DNA from: Granulicella mallensis
GTDB lineage: Bacteria > Acidobacteriota > Terriglobia > Terriglobales > Acidobacteriaceae
Direction of reading: 5' to 3'
Assembly: GCF_014203225.1 (NCBI RefSeq)
Contig: NZ_JACHIO010000010.1
Coordinates: forward strand, 124,001 to 188,000
DNA length: 64,000 nucleotides
Under the pieces are notes generated by a model, which was given only the letters and a program-made list of their open reading frames with translations, searched no databases and had not been told where the DNA came from. Shown one piece after another: positions 5,909 through 37,056 of this stretch; the stretch's first letter is position 1, and every line of letters starts with the position of its first letter. The translations under genes and the position numbers were made by a program.

Positions 5909-8161
5909 TCAGCGTGGGATTTGACTCACGAGTGACTCTGCCTTTTCCTGGGCATGCAGAGCCTGATCCTGTCTTCCTGTGGCCGTGTACATTGCGGCCA
6001 GGATCTTCCACCGGCCAGCTACCGCAGGGGTTTCCTGTACGGCTTTCTCTTCTGCTGCAACGGCCGCAGGCCAGTTCGACAACTGGCTGTAGGCTGCCGC
6101 TTCGGCGTCGTAGAGGTCGGCTTTTGCCGGGCTACTGTCTGGTAGCACCTGCGATGCCTCCTGCAGTGTCTGTAATGCCGTGTTCGCCTGGCCGTTGAGT
6201 ACCTCTGCCTTGGCCAGCGATAACTCGACTGAAAATTCGGGTTGGGCAGCTAATCGCAAGGCTCTCTGAAAGGCATAGACCGCTTCGGGATAGCGTCGCT
6301 GATTCGCATAGAGCAATCCAAGCTGATACCAGGCGGCATCGGACTCGGACATCTTCAAGCTGCTGCGGAAGGATTCTTCGGCGGCGGCGAATTCACCACG
6401 CGAAGCCTGTAGTTGTCCATTCAGCAGAACGAGCGAGCGGTCGCCCTTTGCAATCCGAGAGGCGCTCTCAAGCGCTTGCTGTGCCTCATCGTTCCGGCCT
6501 AGCAGGAAATAAAGAACAGTCGCATTGGCGAGCTTCTGATAGTGCTCCATGCGCAGGCGTTTGTTTTGGGGAAGACTTTCATTTTCGACAAGGTGCTGAT
6601 GTTGGCAGTCAATCCTGAGAGAAGAGAGCTCGGTCTGAGGCAACGCGCCATCGCGCACAAACACAATGGCGGTTGTATCGAAGTAGACCGGTACCCAGTT
6701 TCGGCTGCTGCAATCCTCGCGTAGTGGGGCCTCTTCGACTCCCCAGAAGCGGGAGAGAGGCAGGATAACGGTCTTGATGTGGTATGTCGCAACCGCCTGG
6801 TTCCACTCTGCAGAGTCGAGAGGGAGATGCGCGAGTTTCAATTGCTCGGAGACAAGTCGATCTCCAAAGGGAAGGTAGCGGCCATCGGCAAAGTCTCGAT
6901 AGTACGGGCCCAACCTCCAGGTGAGATAGCTGCTCAGGTTGAATGTGGAAAAGAGTTCTGTCGGCAGATGATTTTTTTCTACGAAGGCTGCTGCATCCTG
7001 CGGCAGCCACCATGAAGCTCCTGCGCCAAAGAGCGTAATCCGATCCTCGAGGAGAGAGGTACGGTCTGTCGCGACGTCATAACAGCGCCAGGCCACAAAC
7101 GATAAAACGGCAATCATTCCTGCCCAACGCAATCCCGGCGATCTGGAGAAACGCTGGAGGTGACGCTGAGAGCCTGCTCTCTCTGCAAAAGCTTCGCCTG
7201 CAATCAGGCAGGCAACGGGGAGAAAGACGCCCTGCGTTCGCGACGACCAGAGACAGCTCCCAAACGCCAGGGAAAGAAAGAGTGCGAGTCCGAGCTGTCT
7301 TTTGTAAAGCAGGAAGACCAGTGCAATTGCAGAGGCTGCAAGCAACCACCAGATGGCGTTGAGAGGAGAGAGCAGTTGCAGTCCTCGCCAGGAGAATTCG
7401 CGATACAGCGGCGTCAGCTCCCTGATGACGTTGGACTGCAAGGTCGAGATGTGTTCCTGTGCTGCGATAGCCGCGTAGATGCGAAAACCCCACGGGTTCA
7501 GAAGCGTGCAAACAAAACTTGCAGCTATCCACGGAGCAGCCAGCTTCAGTTGACGGAGAGCCCTGTCTCGCTTGGCTTGCTGGGCACAATCGGCGACTTC
7601 CGCTGCGATATAACCGAGCATGAGTCCCAGGCCGGAGATAAAGCCGGTATGCAGATTTACCCAGAAGATCATGAGCAGAGGCAGCAGCCACAATCGGCGG
7701 CTGTCCCTTCCCAGATAATGATCAAGGAGCACACGGGTATAGGCCGCTGCAATCACAACGGTAAAGATTCCTGAGCGCGGAATCATCTGTCCAGCGAGTG
7801 CGGGGACGGCAAGCAGAAGCAGTATTAGTACGGATGTCTTACTGCGCAGTGCCACGATAGCCAGTGTTGCGAGCAGAGCTACGGCGCAGAACCATGAGAT
7901 GGCCGCATAACCACCAAAGTGAAACAGATGTCGAAAGACAATGCCCGCAAGAGGCGGGTAGACCCATGTCGATCCCGGTGCGGTGTAAGAAAGCACATCG
8001 CCGGAGGCTAGTGGGCTGCGGGCGTCCGCCATCTGCCAGCCGAGATCGAAGTCCACTACCGTCTGGAGACCGGCAATGGCTCCATAAAGCATCACGAGCG
8101 TCAGCAGGATGAGACGGATCGATGGGGATCGGGTTTGGGCGGAAGAATCTCGCACCGACAT
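5909..8161 (-). CDS. Polytopic membrane protein with C-terminal TPR domain
   Basis: A 750-aa protein in two parts. Residues 20 to about 370 hold roughly ten membrane helices with a long early extracytoplasmic loop (VDFDLGWQMADAR), a layout like GT-C glycosyltransferases. Residues 570-745 hold about four tetratricopeptide repeats (for example YPEAVYAFQRALRLA). No sugar-transfer catalytic motif can be fixed with certainty, so a role in envelope glycan assembly is inference. It is divergent from the secreted protein at 8230, leaving about 70 bases for both promoters. Confidence 0.7.
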   Translation of the reverse strand: MSVRDSSAQTRSPSIRLILLTLVMLYGAIAGLQTVVDFDLGWQMADARSPLASGDVLSYTAPGSTWVYPPLAGIVFRHLFHFGGYAAISWFCAVALLATLAIVALRSKTSVLILLLLAVPALAGQMIPRSGIFTVVIAAAYTRVLLDHYLGRDSRRLWLLPLLMIFWVNLHTGFISGLGLMLGYIAAEVADCAQQAKRDRALRQLKLAAPWIAASFVCTLLNPWGFRIYAAIAAQEHISTLQSNVIRELTPLYREFSWRGLQLLSPLNAIWWLLAASAIALVFLLYKRQLGLALFLSLAFGSCLWSSRTQGVFLPVACLIAGEAFAERAGSQRHLQRFSRSPGLRWAGMIAVLSFVAWRCYDVATDRTSLLEDRITLFGAGASWWLPQDAAAFVEKNHLPTELFSTFNLSSYLTWRLGPYYRDFADGRYLPFGDRLVSEQLKLAHLPLDSAEWNQAVATYHIKTVILPLSRFWGVEEAPLREDCSSRNWVPVYFDTTAIVFVRDGALPQTELSSLRIDCQHQHLVENESLPQNKRLRMEHYQKLANATVLYFLLGRNDEAQQALESASRIAKGDRSLVLLNGQLQASRGEFAAAEESFRSSLKMSESDAAWYQLGLLYANQRRYPEAVYAFQRALRLAAQPEFSVELSLAKAEVLNGQANTALQTLQEASQVLPDSSPAKADLYDAEAAAYSQLSNWPAAVAAEEKAVQETPAVAGRWKILAAMYTATGRQDQALHAQEKAESLVSQIPR

Positions 8162-32393: not shown

Positions 32394-33170
32394 ATGGTAG
32401 ATCCAAGCCACATCCACTTCTCGACGTTCGAGCAGCTCATTCTTTCGGGGGCCGCGACTAAGCGACTGCTGATGGCCTGCGCGATGGGCGGCATCGTGGG
32501 CATCGAGCGGGAGTGGCGGCATAAGGACTCAGGGCTGCGCACGAACCTGTTGATCTGCATGGGGTCGGCGCTGTTCACGATCATGAGCGTGGTGCTGGCA
32601 GGGGATTCCACGGCGAACCATGGGCAGGTGGCCGCCAATATCGTACAGGGCGTTGGGTTCCTGGGCGCCGGGTTGATTCTGCATACGAAGAATCGTGTGC
32701 TCGGGTTGACGAGTGCGGCGACGGTGTTTGTGGTGGCGGCGATCGGCATGACCTGCGGGGCTGGGCTGTACATTGAGGCCCTGATCGCTACAGTGCTCGT
32801 GCTGATCTCGCTGCAGGCCGTGGGCGCGGTGGAGAGCAAGCTGGGATGGAAGCGCTACCCGATGATCTATGAGGTACGCGCGGATGTAGGGTCACCGCTG
32901 CCTCGGGCGATCGTAGGAGAGGACAAAGCCGAGGCACTGGCGGAGGACGTCGCATCTGCCTTGCATCGGATGCAGCGTGCGATCTTGAAGGTGCTGGACT
33001 CGGCGGGACAGCGGTTGTCCGTGCTGGATCGCGATAACGTGGCCGGCATAGAGCGGGTTGCCTTTACGGTCGTGGCGACTCGCCGCACGCACGATCGTCT
33101 GCTGAAAGAATTGCGTGCGAGTGATGCGACCGACCAGGTGGCAGTGTTTCGAGATACGGAGGAAGAGTGA
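32394..33170 (+). CDS. MgtC/SapB-family membrane protein
   Basis: A 258-aa protein with four to five N-terminal helices bearing the MgtC signature (GGIVGIEREWRHKDSGLRTN) and GFLGAGLILHTKNRVLGLTSAA, followed by a cytosolic ACT-like domain (about 155-255). MgtC proteins help growth in low magnesium and regulate ATP synthase in pathogens; in free-living bacteria the role is unclear. The stop overlaps the GTG start of the DapF-like gene. Confidence 0.92.
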   Translation: MVDPSHIHFSTFEQLILSGAATKRLLMACAMGGIVGIEREWRHKDSGLRTNLLICMGSALFTIMSVVLAGDSTANHGQVAANIVQGVGFLGAGLILHTKNRVLGLTSAATVFVVAAIGMTCGAGLYIEALIATVLVLISLQAVGAVESKLGWKRYPMIYEVRADVGSPLPRAIVGEDKAEALAEDVASALHRMQRAILKVLDSAGQRLSVLDRDNVAGIERVAFTVVATRRTHDRLLKELRASDATDQVAVFRDTEEE

Positions 33171-33982
33171 GCGGGATTGGGTTTGTGAAGGCGCATGCGT
33201 GCGGCAATGATTTTCTGATCATGGATGAGAGTGACGGCAAAGGGCGTCATGCCGTGTTGGCGAAGACCTTGTGCGCGCGAAATACCGGCATCGGTGCGGA
33301 TGGGATTGAGTTTCTTGACCGCCGCGCGGATGGCACGTATTTCCTGCGTCTCTTCAATGCGGATGGCAGTGAGGCCGAGTTGAGCGGCAACGGCACACGC
33401 TGTGTAGCCGCGTGGCTGGCGGCGAGTGAGGGTCTCAAGAACGTCGCGTTGGGAACGCACGGCGGCGTACGGACCTGCCGTCTGGTAGAACGTCAGGGCG
33501 CGCAGTGGTGGATCGAGAGCTCGATGGGTGTGCCGCGCGTGATGCCGCGGGCGATCCAGGTGAAGGGTGTGCAGGGAGTGATCGAAGGCGCGATGGTCAA
33601 TGTGGGGAATCCCCACTACGTGATCTTCACCGATCAGGAGGGCTTTCGTAGCCACGGCATGAGCTGGCAGGAGCTTGGTGCAAAGATCAGCGTCGATCCG
33701 CTCTTTCCGCATGGAACCAATGTGGAGTTTGTGCGGGTGCTGGAGGACGGAGAGATTGCCTTCCGCATCTACGAACGCGGCTGTGGGCCAACAAACTCAA
33801 GCGGTACAGGAACGTGCGCCTCCGCGGCCGCAGCGATGACGCTGCGTGAGACTCCACGGGCTCTAACCGCGATCGCGCAGGGTGGAACGCAACAGGTCGT
33901 ATGGCCGGACAGCACGAGCGAGATGCTGCTGATGGGGCCGGCGGAGATCATCTGCAAGGGCGAAGTGGAGTTTGGCGGGTGA
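33167..33982 (+). CDS. dapF: Diaminopimelate epimerase homologue with both catalytic cysteines replaced by serine
   Basis: A 271-aa protein with the DapF two-lobed fold motifs (CGNDFLIMD at 12-20, FNADGSEAELSGNGTRC at 63-79, YERGCGPTNSSGTG at 202-215). In standard DapF, Cys73 (C-GNG) and Cys217 (A-C-GTG) are the acid/base pair for LL- to meso-DAP epimerisation. Here S73 and S212 stand at those places; the codons are AGC at 33383 and AGC at 33800. Other cysteines (C79, C206, C217) lie near but not at the site. Normal epimerase activity is doubtful. Start GTG overlaps mgtC; ldcA and mpl follow. Confidence 0.85.
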   Translation: MSGIGFVKAHACGNDFLIMDESDGKGRHAVLAKTLCARNTGIGADGIEFLDRRADGTYFLRLFNADGSEAELSGNGTRCVAAWLAASEGLKNVALGTHGGVRTCRLVERQGAQWWIESSMGVPRVMPRAIQVKGVQGVIEGAMVNVGNPHYVIFTDQEGFRSHGMSWQELGAKISVDPLFPHGTNVEFVRVLEDGEIAFRIYERGCGPTNSSGTGTCASAAAAMTLRETPRALTAIAQGGTQQVVWPDSTSEMLLMGPAEIICKGEVEFGG

Positions 33983-34037: not shown

Positions 34038-34931
34038 ATGCTGTTGAGACAGGGAAGTCGTGTTGCGGTGGTTTCGCCTGCGTCGGCGGCGAAGGCGGAG
34101 CTTGTGGAGCGTGGCGTTGAACGGCTCCGCGGGTTTGGGTATGAGCCGGTGATGATGCCGCATGCCCTGGCTCGTGGTCCTCTGTACTATGCGGGAACTG
34201 CAGAGCAGCGCGTGGCGGATCTGCATGAGGCTTTTGCGGATTCTTCGATTGAGGGAGTTCTTTGCACGCGCGGCGGCTGGGGATCGGCGGAGCTTTTGCC
34301 TCTGCTGGATCGTGAGTTGATTTGCGCGAATCCCAAAGTGTTTGTCGGATATAGCGACCACACGTCTCTGCATACGTGGTTCTGGAATGAGTGCGGCATG
34401 CGCACGTTCTATGCTCCGATGGTTGCGGCGGACTGGTCGAAGGACGACGGCGTGGACGAGCGCACATGGCGTGCTTCGATTGAGGGTCACGGAGCGTGGA
34501 GCGTGGGTGCTGAGGATGGATTGCGTGTTCTGCGTAACGGCAGTGCGGAAGGGCGGCTGCTGGGGGGATGCCTGGCGATTCTGGAAGCAGGGTTGGGAAC
34601 GCCGTGGTCGTTGAGGCTCGAAGAGCCTACCGTGTTGTTCTTGGAAGATATCGGGACCAAGCCGTACCAATGGGACCGGATGCTGCAGCACCTGAAGTTT
34701 GCGGGCATGATGAAGAATGTGCGGGGCGTTGTGCTGGGTGATATGAGCGCGAACGTTCAACCGACCGAGATGGAGTTGCTGGAGGCCGCGTGTCTCCATG
34801 CCCTGCGCGATTTTGAGGGCCCCATTACGATCGGCCTGCAAAGCGGCCACGTGTCGATGCGGAACCGTTCTGTTCCGCTGGGAGCCTGGGTCGCGATGAA
34901 GAAAGCTGAGATGAAGGAAGTGGCGGGCTGA
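34038..34931 (+). CDS. ldcA: LD-carboxypeptidase (peptidase S66)
   Basis: A 297-aa cytosolic serine peptidase that removes D-Ala from recycled murein tetrapeptides. The catalytic Ser lies in CTRGGWGSAELLP near residue 80, and the family pattern YSDHTSLHTWF and a C-terminal LEDIGTKPYQWDRML follow, with the Glu and His expected for the S66 triad. ATG 34038 gives the normal N-terminus (LRQGSRVAVVSPAS). The frame is open upstream to 33972, but that part is repeat sequence. mpl begins 2 bases after the stop. Confidence 0.93.
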   Translation: MLLRQGSRVAVVSPASAAKAELVERGVERLRGFGYEPVMMPHALARGPLYYAGTAEQRVADLHEAFADSSIEGVLCTRGGWGSAELLPLLDRELICANPKVFVGYSDHTSLHTWFWNECGMRTFYAPMVAADWSKDDGVDERTWRASIEGHGAWSVGAEDGLRVLRNGSAEGRLLGGCLAILEAGLGTPWSLRLEEPTVLFLEDIGTKPYQWDRMLQHLKFAGMMKNVRGVVLGDMSANVQPTEMELLEAACLHALRDFEGPITIGLQSGHVSMRNRSVPLGAWVAMKKAEMKEVAG

Positions 34932-34933
34932 CG

Positions 34934-36400
34934 ATGGCGAAGCATGTGCATTTGATTGGGGTGTGTGGAACGGCGATGGCGTCGCTGGCAGGGATGTTGC
35001 GGGCGCAGGGACATCGTGTCACGGGCTCGGACATGGCGGCGTATCCTCCGATGAGCGATCAGCTGCGGGCGATGGGGATTCCCATCATGGAGCCTTATAG
35101 CGAGAAGAATCTCGACCCGCGGCCGGACCTTGTGGTGGTCGGCAATGCGATCTCGCGCGGCAATCCGGAGCTGGAGCGTGTGCTGGATGAGCGGATTCCC
35201 ATGACGTCGATGGCTGCCTTGATTCACGATGAGTTTCTGCAGGATCGTGAGTCCCTGGTCGTCTGCGGAACGCATGGCAAGACGACCACGACCAGCATGC
35301 TGGCGTGGATCTATGAGACGGCAGGGATTAGGGAACAGGGATTAGGGATTAGGGAAGACGACGCTGCAAGGTGGACCCCATCGTTTTTGATTGGGGGCGT
35401 GGCGGAGAACTTTGGCACGAGCTTCCGGGTGCAGGAGGGCACGCGGCCCTTCATCCTTGAAGGCGATGAGTATGACACGGCGTTCTTCGACAAGGGGCCG
35501 AAGTTTTTGCACTACTTTCCCGATGCCGCCATCCTGACGCATGTCGAGTTCGATCACGCGGACATCTATACGGACTTGAATGCGGTCAAGACGGCCTTCA
35601 AACGCATGGTGAATCTCATCCCTCGGCGTGGCCGGCTATTGGCTTTCGATGGCAGCGAAAACGTGACTGAGTGTGCGGCGAAGGCGTTTTGCGCGGTGGA
35701 ACGCTATGGCTTCAAGGAAGATTCGTATTGGCAGGCTGTCGATATGAAGCATGAGGGCGTCGTCACCACCTGGACGCTGTTGCGCGGTGGAGTGGAGTTT
35801 GCGAAGCTGCGGCTGCCGATGGCCGGCGAGCACAATGCACTGAATGCCACGGCTGCGGCTGCGCTGGCCGCAGGGCAGGGTATTCCTGTGGAGGCAATCG
35901 TCGAAGCGCTGGCTACCTTCAAGAGCGTGAAGCGGCGGCTCGAGGTGCGGGCCGAGGTGGCTGGTGTGACGGTGATTGACGACTTTGCGCATCATCCGAC
36001 GGCTATTCGCGAGACCTTGCGAGCGCTGAAGAGCGCCTATGCGGGGCGGCGGTTGTGGGCTGTGCTCGAACCGCGTTCCAATACGCTGCGTCGCAACGTC
36101 TTTGAGCGTGAGCTGGTGGAGAGCCTCTCGCTGGCAGACGAAGTGGTACTGGCGGGAGTCTTTAAGAGCGATGCGATTCCGGTGTTGGAGCGGTTGGAGC
36201 CGGAGCATGTTGTCGATGCGTTGAATGCGAGACAGGTTCCTGCGGTGCTGTGTGCCGATGCCGATGCGATTGTGGCGGAGGTTACGCCGCGAGTGCGCGC
36301 CGGAGATGTGGTGGCGATCCTGTCGAATGGCGGTTTTGGCGGGATTTATACCAAGTTGCCGCAGGCGCTGGAGGCTGCTGTAGCGGGATCGCTGCTCTAG
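34934..36400 (+). CDS. mpl: UDP-N-acetylmuramate:L-Ala-gamma-D-Glu-meso-DAP ligase (Mpl)
   Basis: A 488-aa Mur ligase that reattaches recycled tripeptide to UDP-MurNAc. N-terminal IGVCGTAMASLAGML, the P-loop GTHGKTTTT (112-120), and EGDEYDTAFFDKGPKF with LEFDHAD-type LTHVEFDHAD are Mpl-specific and distinguish it from MurC. Residues 131-149 (GIREQGLGIRE and the next eight) are not in the family alignment I recall, where the chain passes from ETAG to SFLIGG with one or two residues. This insert is encoded by a repeat at 35323-35356. Its stop TAG shares CTAG with the convergent gene. Confidence 0.93.
   Translation: MAKHVHLIGVCGTAMASLAGMLRAQGHRVTGSDMAAYPPMSDQLRAMGIPIMEPYSEKNLDPRPDLVVVGNAISRGNPELERVLDERIPMTSMAALIHDEFLQDRESLVVCGTHGKTTTTSMLAWIYETAGIREQGLGIREDDAARWTPSFLIGGVAENFGTSFRVQEGTRPFILEGDEYDTAFFDKGPKFLHYFPDAAILTHVEFDHADIYTDLNAVKTAFKRMVNLIPRRGRLLAFDGSENVTECAAKAFCAVERYGFKEDSYWQAVDMKHEGVVTTWTLLRGGVEFAKLRLPMAGEHNALNATAAAALAAGQGIPVEAIVEALATFKSVKRRLEVRAEVAGVTVIDDFAHHPTAIRETLRALKSAYAGRRLWAVLEPRSNTLRRNVFERELVESLSLADEVVLAGVFKSDAIPVLERLEPEHVVDALNARQVPAVLCADADAIVAEVTPRVRAGDVVAILSNGGFGGIYTKLPQALEAAVAGSLL
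35323..35356. repeat. AGGGATTAGGGA short repeat inside mpl
   Basis: Units AGGGATTAGGGAACAGGG then ATTAGGGATTAGGGA are read in frame as GIREQGLGIRE of mpl. The same words occur in intergenic repeats at 19401-19427, 19721-19757, 51316-51336 and 51715-51765. It lies just past the P-loop helix of the ligase. Confidence 0.75.
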
Positions 36401-37056
36401 TAGTAAACGGCACAACCTCGCGCTTCCAGTGTGGCGATCCACTCCGGAAACACGAAGTCGGTGACCCAGCGGAGATCGAGTTTCTCCAGTCGCGGCAGTT
36501 CAGCGACCGAGGCGGGCAGATGCTCAATTGGGTTTCCACGGAGATCGAGTTGGCGGAGTTCGCGCAGCGCCGAGATTGCGTCAGGTAGTCTGGTCAGCTT
36601 GTTGTTCCTGAGATGAAGCTCGCGCAGTTGGGAGAGCTGTCCAAACGATTCAGGCAATGAGGCAATGGCATTGTCTGTGACCCGGAGTTCGATGAGGCTT
36701 GCCATGCCGCTGACGCATTCAGGAAATGCTTCGAAGGCGTTGCTGCTGATGTTCAAGTAGCGCAACCGCGTCAGCCCTGCGAATGTAGCTGGCAGCGAGG
36801 CGAGACGATTGTCGTGCAGGTAAAGAAAGTCGGTCAGGTGAGGTAGCTGTCCGAGGGATACTGGAACCTGTGTGAGCTGGTTGTGCCCCAGATCAATCAT
36901 GCGGAGTTCCTGGAGCTGTCCGATCTGGTCAGGGATCGAAGAGAGGTCGTTGTCAGCCAGGATCAGGGCTTCAAGTTCGTGTTGCTCCCAGACGTACTCG
37001 GGGACGGACCCGAGGTGCTTCTTCCAGAGGTTCAGCGTCTTTGCTATATCTCTCAA
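36397..37056 (-). CDS. Leucine-rich repeat protein
   Basis: A 219-aa protein made of about seven leucine-rich repeats with a 23-residue period (LxxLxLxxNxLxxLP), preceded by a short helical cap MRDIAKTLNLWKKHLG and ended by a capping segment. No signal peptide is seen, so it is probably cytosolic; LRRs act as binding platforms. Start TTG 37056 follows AGGATGAATCC. Its TAG stop lies in the same CTAG palindrome as the mpl stop on the other strand. Confidence 0.88.
   Translation of the reverse strand: MRDIAKTLNLWKKHLGSVPEYVWEQHELEALILADNDLSSIPDQIGQLQELRMIDLGHNQLTQVPVSLGQLPHLTDFLYLHDNRLASLPATFAGLTRLRYLNISSNAFEAFPECVSGMASLIELRVTDNAIASLPESFGQLSQLRELHLRNNKLTRLPDAISALRELRQLDLRGNPIEHLPASVAELPRLEKLDLRWVTDFVFPEWIATLEARGCAVYY

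Follow-up and report, generated by a model that had tools for sequence, protein, structure and literature searches.

PLP-independent amino-acid racemases usually work with a thiolate/thiol pair, and the reason given in PMC8142540 is that cysteine has a lower pKa and is more easily desolvated than serine or threonine. In the diaminopimelate (DAP) epimerase family, DapF, whose product meso-DAP is a precursor of both the cell wall and lysine, the two catalytic cysteines sit at the starts of two helices, and the residues that hold DAP are known from the Anabaena enzyme (both PMC12039745). The PROSITE signature of DapF, as quoted in PMC8225329, has the catalytic Cys before [GI]-N-[GA]-x-R. In the C. 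glutamicum enzyme, H2O2 switches activity off via a disulfide between both catalytic cysteines (PMC5296763). For one DapF, PMC8142540 quotes a kcat/Km of 883 per M per s. Exchange of one cysteine for serine nearly abolishes or greatly reduces activity in PddB (PMC8225329) and HisR (PMC11602996). Among the papers listed by literature searches, none seems to describe a two-serine epimerase of the DapF family.

The window, a stretch of 64,000 nucleotides from Granulicella mallensis (NZ_JACHIO010000010.1, positions 124,001 to 188,000), carries a DapF-family gene at 33167..33982 on the plus strand (all coordinates are those of the window unless a locus is named). The gene begins with GTG, shares 4 bases with the end of mgtC and encodes a protein of 271 residues.

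Serine at both catalytic positions of a DapF-family protein

The protein scored 206.4 bits against the DapF model TIGR00652 (cut-off 114.65) and 143.6 bits against PF01678 (cut-off 34.7). At an E value of 0.001, Pfam and NCBIfam returned DapF models only, with no match to a proline racemase or hydroxyproline-enzyme profile. The framework motifs FNADGSE, SGNGTRC and YERG, which the initial annotation had described as kept, are present, and its central observation, serine at both catalytic positions, was confirmed. In phmmer alignments Ser73 (AGC, 33383..33385, plus strand) and Ser212 (AGC, 33800..33802, plus strand) stand opposite the catalytic cysteines of three solved DapFs, 9mro (Anabaena), 3ejx (Arabidopsis) and 5h2g (C. 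glutamicum). A MAFFT alignment of 225 rows was concordant, with Cys at both columns in the Anabaena and C. glutamicum enzymes. The PROSITE signature is missed at one place, where SGNGTR has Ser for Cys, and the remainder fits; with Ser73 and Ser212 the protein lacks the catalytic Cys pair of a two-cysteine DAP epimerase.

An AlphaFold2 model (mean pLDDT 97.1, pTM 0.93) has helices 74-88 and 213-226 beginning directly after Ser73 and Ser212, the places at which the catalytic cysteines of the family are found. When the model was used in a fold search, the best solved match was the Anabaena DapF 9mro (E 8e-28, TM 0.87), whose entry title gives it as bound to D,L-aziDAP or D,L-alpha-methyl DAP, and the two-domain fold of DapF was thus recovered. 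The matches that followed were other DapFs and O-ureidoserine racemase, the DapF mutants C73S and C217S being among the matches; hydroxyproline epimerase and proline racemase structures stood lower in the list.

The Ser/Ser rows of the alignment number 101 (the window, 78 phylum loci and 22 named loci, with L014 left out) and represent 100 distinct sequences, L022 and L108 being one gene. An alignment that puts C79, C206 or C217 of the window protein in the catalytic positions, named beforehand as the result that would count against the serine reading, was sought among the solved DapFs and the 225 rows and was not found. Takeover by any of these three was rejected on their positions and on the row counts. 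Of 96 Ser/Ser rows (all except five outside the main group, with L022 and L108 both counted), 85 have Cys79, 6 have Cys206 and 66 have Cys217. Ordinary DapFs carry, besides the catalytic pair, cysteines to which C79 and C217 align; the other Cys/Cys rows, 57 with L117 as a duplicate of L084, have C79 in 57 and C217 in 54.

The residues that contact DAP are kept. Asn14 (33206..33208; Anabaena Asn13), a conserved pocket residue, is found in 99 of the 100 distinct Ser/Ser sequences. The contacts to distal DAP (PMC12039745) are Asn64 (33356..33358; Anabaena Asn66), Asn148 (33608..33610; Anabaena Asn164), Asn185 (33719..33721; Anabaena Asn197) and the pair Glu203-Arg204 (33773..33778; Anabaena Glu215-Arg216), all on the plus strand. 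Each is present in 100/100 of these sequences apart from Asn148 (99/100), for which L138 is the exception, and Gly74 and Asn75 are likewise found in all 100. The acidobacterial Cys/Cys proteins (n = 54) have Val at position 148 in 39 cases and Asn in 8, so that the acidobacterial proteins that kept the cysteines have mostly changed the pocket and those that lost them have kept it. These Cys/Cys proteins may have another substrate or may bind DAP differently. Ten of the 54, which include L129, L134 and L161, have Asp or Glu in place of Asn64.

Distribution and descent of the Ser/Ser type

A database search scored 8,000 candidates, and the best 120 of its 7,999 matches, the nearest proteins, were all Ser/Ser; the pair of serines is therefore neither chance nor a sequencing error. 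The idea of a lone degenerate copy was rejected on the same 120/120. A plasmid search gave 116 records, all below 60% identity, with 32-33% among the five matches listed.

A DapF match was obtained in 290 of the 297 acidobacterial genomes with a completeness of at least 90%, and in 263 it exceeds the cut-off. Both catalytic columns were read in 140 genomes, which are not a random sample (the 30 best-scoring loci were taken and then others to cover 75 family-level groups): 78 are Ser/Ser, 54 Cys/Cys and 4 Cys/Ser, and in 4 fragments a column is missing. By family-level group (n = 75), Ser/Ser was seen in 42, Cys/Cys in 31 and both in 3. A single DapF match is present in 75 of the 78 Ser/Ser genomes. 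Some genomes of one group, f22 (e.g. G058 and G233), have more than one DapF match together with a strong Ser/Ser copy, and relatives in that group such as G026 have a single weak Cys/Cys DapF.

The named loci are 80 out of 579 relatives. Those of the Ser/Ser type are titled as acidobacteria (by genus, family or phylum), as Candidatus Aminicenantes or, once, as 'bacterium'; Aminicenantes were counted in the same phylum because the gene of L022 recurs as L108 in the phylum search. The remaining named loci are Cys/Cys, except for one Cys/Ser record from Hydrogenedentota and for L014, in which the match is broken at the first column. In L014 (positions 6001-6764), a Granulicella metagenome bin, the dapF match is split over two frames, probably through an assembly error or a broken gene. 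Forms with Cys first and Ser second were seen in L225, L227, L150 and L140 (acidobacterial) and in L081 (the Hydrogenedentota record). In much of this soil phylum, DapF appears to have lost both thiols and kept its substrate pocket.

A quick tree was built, with both catalytic columns masked, from 111 rows of the 225-row alignment: each family and type gave one row, and the named ones were added. The main Ser/Ser clade (52 rows, starred, 96) lies among canonical DapFs. A second clade of 4 rows (100) is placed apart from it, close to the enzymes of cyanobacteria and plants, and the third occurrence is a single row, L138, among divergent acidobacterial Cys/Cys proteins. The Ser/Ser label needs 3 changes on this tree, at least 2 of them being forced by starred branches, and shuffled labels average 37; the tree has long branches, and the stars of a quick tree are less trustworthy.

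The codons bear on whether the serines have been selected. In the 100 Ser/Ser loci fetched, codon 73 is TCN in 89 and AGC in 11, and within the main clade the tree shows four changes between the AG and TC classes, all with Ser kept. Codon 212 is TCN in 99 of the same 100, and AGC is found there solely in the window and in L004. Each switch between TCN and AGC takes two base changes. In 9 of 11 Ser/Ser pairs dN/dS is about 0.05-0.25; for the remaining 2 pairs dS is infinite, and in most pairs it is close to saturation. Serine is retained through TCN/AGC switches at both sites, which points to selection for it.

Residue 201, Ile in the window protein (33767..33769, plus strand), accompanies Ser212: it is bulky in 101 of 108 distinct rows with Ser212 and in 0 of 112 with Cys212. 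It is Ile in 4/4 rows of the second clade, bulky in 4 of the 5 Cys/Ser rows and Val in L138, which has Val also in place of Asn148. Starred branches give two independent pairs; with so small a number no sign test could be significant, and the pairing of a bulky 201 with Ser212 is suggestive. Co-variation at positions 82 and 216 was inconsistent across the independent Ser/Ser groups.

Neighbouring genes and the DAP/lysine pathway

The gene lies, as had been proposed, between mgtC and ldcA-mpl, all on the plus strand. Upstream is an mgtC-family gene (32394..33170; PF02308, 121.9 bits). Downstream are ldcA (34038..34931), for an LD-carboxypeptidase of peptidase family S66 (PF02016, 126.6 bits; PF17676, 99.2 bits), and mpl (34934..36400), for murein peptide ligase (TIGR01081, 422.4 bits, cut-off 388.7). 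Just past mpl, on the minus strand at 36397-37056, is an open reading frame resembling leucine-rich repeats. Among 85 flanked loci, in many of which the flank was only 1.5 kb, relatives of LdcA lie downstream in 14, relatives of Mpl downstream in 16 and relatives of MgtC upstream in 7, but in 11 other loci an HtrA-type protease is directly upstream of dapF. The murein-recycling neighbourhood of dapF is thus recurrent and one arrangement among several.

In the window genome (6.47 Mb in 52 contigs, with a stated completeness of 100%) asd, lysC and dapB are side by side, and dapA and dapD lie farther along the same 19-kb stretch. LysA scored 501.8 bits, above its cut-off, and MurE has the DNPR and GKGHE motifs. 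DapD passed NF008808 (281 vs 204) and failed TIGR00965 (173.5 vs 375.4). No DapL was found above cut-off and, with the one DapE model searched (TIGR01910), no DapE, the best match being an ArgE. Between dapA and dapD, on contig C1, is an enolase-superfamily protein (L308:11406-12896) closest to sugar-acid dehydratases.

The product of the DapD route is LL-DAP, and both LysA and MurE take meso-DAP, the DNPR motif being the mark of a MurE that adds meso-DAP. An epimerase is therefore needed in this genome. The dehydrogenase Ddh (TIGR01921) reached 22.5 bits against a cut-off of 180.6, and a Ddh bypass was rejected on that score; among 99 genomes Ddh was above cut-off in 2, both with Cys/Cys DapF. 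The full-length DapF model gave 1 match in the window genome, the gene at 33167..33982. PF01678 found this gene as two half matches and, on contig C5, one further match below threshold. The C5 protein was considered as a second DapF and rejected: it resembles 4-hydroxyproline epimerase, though it too falls below the cut-offs for that enzyme. The genome-wide search for a second dapF with both cysteines, proposed in the initial annotation, thus found none of either type by family and full-length profiles. On gene content, a DAP epimerase should be required here and the Ser/Ser protein is the main candidate.

Of the genomes typed, 23 of 34 with a Ser/Ser DapF and 7 of 31 with a Cys/Cys one have LysA above cut-off, kinship uncorrected; 11 of the 34 do not. 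A search of paper listings on the diamino acid of acidobacterial peptidoglycan yielded nothing of use. Strong DapF matches together with LysA above cut-off were also seen in G068 and G094. In the 60 genomes chosen for the DapD and DapL searches, from which the shares are not phylum frequencies, DapD exceeded its cut-off in 19 of the 31 Ser/Ser genomes and in 11 of the 27 Cys/Cys ones, which leaves 16 of the latter without it. The 12 Ser/Ser genomes without DapD above cut-off (G001, G005, G015, G038, G043, G054, G056, G085, G106, G162, G203 and G244) also lack the C-terminal domain of DapB (PF05173), and the substrate is less sure there because both proteins are missing. All 12 have a MurE of the DNPR type, and G038 has a DapL. 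MurE was searched in 58 chosen genomes and the DapB domain in 32, mostly those that TIGR00036 missed, and these shares too are not phylum frequencies; MurE motifs were examined in 50 of the 57 genomes above cut-off, L292 being without the motif by pattern.

Function, mechanism and known systems

The results shown here are the two substitutions, an intact DAP pocket, a single gene copy, the pathway genes, the spread through the phylum and serine kept through codon switches. From these we consider the Ser/Ser protein to be a working LL/meso-diaminopimelate epimerase that would use two serines as base and acid, with a probability of roughly two in three. Of the readings offered in the initial annotation, serines in a changed mechanism is the one that the sequences best support here. 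The other, a distinct isomerase, dehydratase or binding protein, is not favoured, because the DAP pocket is kept, the protein is the only DapF of the genome and the DAP/lysine genes demand an epimerase. One point against a two-serine epimerase is that related enzymes lose nearly all activity when one Cys is mutated to Ser.

It is conceivable that the Ser/Ser protein binds DAP or a DAP-like compound and performs other chemistry on it, such as a one-base elimination or dehydration, meso-DAP coming from another enzyme. In favour of this are the Ser/Thr enzyme B9K4G4, which acts as a dehydratase (PMC4113996), the elimination from chloroglutamate that glutamate racemase retains when Ser replaces one of its Cys residues (PMC8142540), and the 12 of 31 Ser/Ser genomes in which neither DapB nor DapD is found. 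Against this, the window genome has the genes that demand an epimerase without another DapF or a Ddh above cut-off, the DAP contacts are kept, and both serines are kept together where an eliminating enzyme would presumably need one base; we regard such chemistry as unlikely. A related proposal, which we find quite improbable, leaves the making of meso-DAP to the enolase-type protein of L308:11406-12896 or to the C5 protein, both present in the window genome, and gives the Ser/Ser DapF a regulatory or binding role, for which E. coli DapF in complex with RppH (PDB 6d13, by its entry title) is a precedent. The enolase-family candidate scored best, below cut-offs, against sugar-acid dehydratases. 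For a binding role, there would be little need to keep the complete pocket and the two serines in 100 sequences. The C5 candidate scored best, also below cut-offs, against 4-hydroxyproline epimerase and has a DapA-like gene about 3 kb away. A DapA-like gene beside a hydroxyproline epimerase is the usual makeup of the hydroxyproline route.

Replacement of one serine in function by another cysteine, C36, C79, C206 or C217, is very doubtful. The window protein has all four, and among the 96 Ser/Ser rows Cys36 is kept in 92 and Cys79 in 85, but the low count of Cys206 and the incomplete one of Cys217 speak against these two. C36 is shared by all three reference DapFs and by 52 of the 54 Cys/Cys rows from acidobacteria; C36, C79 and C217 thus exist beside the catalytic pair, being common in Cys/Cys rows as well. 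The loss of both catalytic cysteines might instead mark a decaying or dead copy of DapF, which we hold to be the least probable explanation of all: dN/dS is well below 1 in the pairs for which it could be computed, and the pocket and both serines are kept in 100 distinct sequences, usually as the sole copy. Conservation of this kind speaks strongly against a dead gene.

If the protein is a two-serine epimerase, its two domains would close around DAP and place the alpha carbon between two serine hydroxyls at helix N-termini. One serine, acidified by the helix dipole and backbone amides in a closed, water-free pocket, would take the proton from the alpha carbon of LL-DAP, and the serine facing it would reprotonate the planar carbanion to give meso-DAP for LysA and MurE. 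The bulky residue 201 might help to pack the smaller hydroxyl. Any advantage of two serines is speculative, and may be that oxidants could not switch the enzyme off via a disulfide between the catalytic residues; a two-serine enzyme would be immune to this bond because it needs both cysteines. We lean slightly towards the broader picture of a thiol-free, cofactor-free DapF in much of the Acidobacteriota, which arose at least twice, uses two serines to remove and return a proton of DAP, and keeps working in the presence of oxidants and thiol reagents that would stop a two-cysteine DapF.

If the Ser/Ser enzymes work, they would give a direct answer to the question of the weakest acid/base pair that can still invert the alpha carbon of an amino acid. 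They would also be natural oxidant-proof epimerases, and many soil bacteria would escape inhibitors that attack the cysteines of DapF. Should they be inactive, the source of meso-DAP in these bacteria becomes the question.

Among known systems, DapF itself (TIGR00652, PF01678; 9mro, 3ejx, 5h2g) shares with the window protein the fold, the DAP contacts, a family score above cut-off and a genomic setting of DAP/lysine genes. It differs in having cysteines where the window protein has its two serines, and Val, Thr or Ser in place of the bulky residue 201. By their numbering, the mutations C73S and C217S of H. influenzae DapF presumably fall in the same places as Ser73 and Ser212. These mutants (2q9h, 2q9j) have the same residue change and match the window model in fold, but they are single laboratory mutants of a Cys/Cys protein with no natural second serine. 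The DAP pocket is presumably absent from the Ser/Thr trans-3-hydroxyproline dehydratase B9K4G4. Like the window protein, that enzyme has no Cys in either catalytic place; unlike an epimerase it eliminates water, and its second side carries a Thr in a non-catalytic orientation (PMC4113996). The Ser/Cys 4-hydroxyproline 2-epimerase B9JQV3 has a related fold and a natural serine as one acid/base residue, but belongs to another branch of the superfamily, acts on another substrate and pairs its one serine with a Cys, numbered 236 in the legend and 255 in the text of PMC4113996. Descent and pocket place the window protein in DapF, but it lacks the catalytic pair that defines the two-cysteine enzyme.
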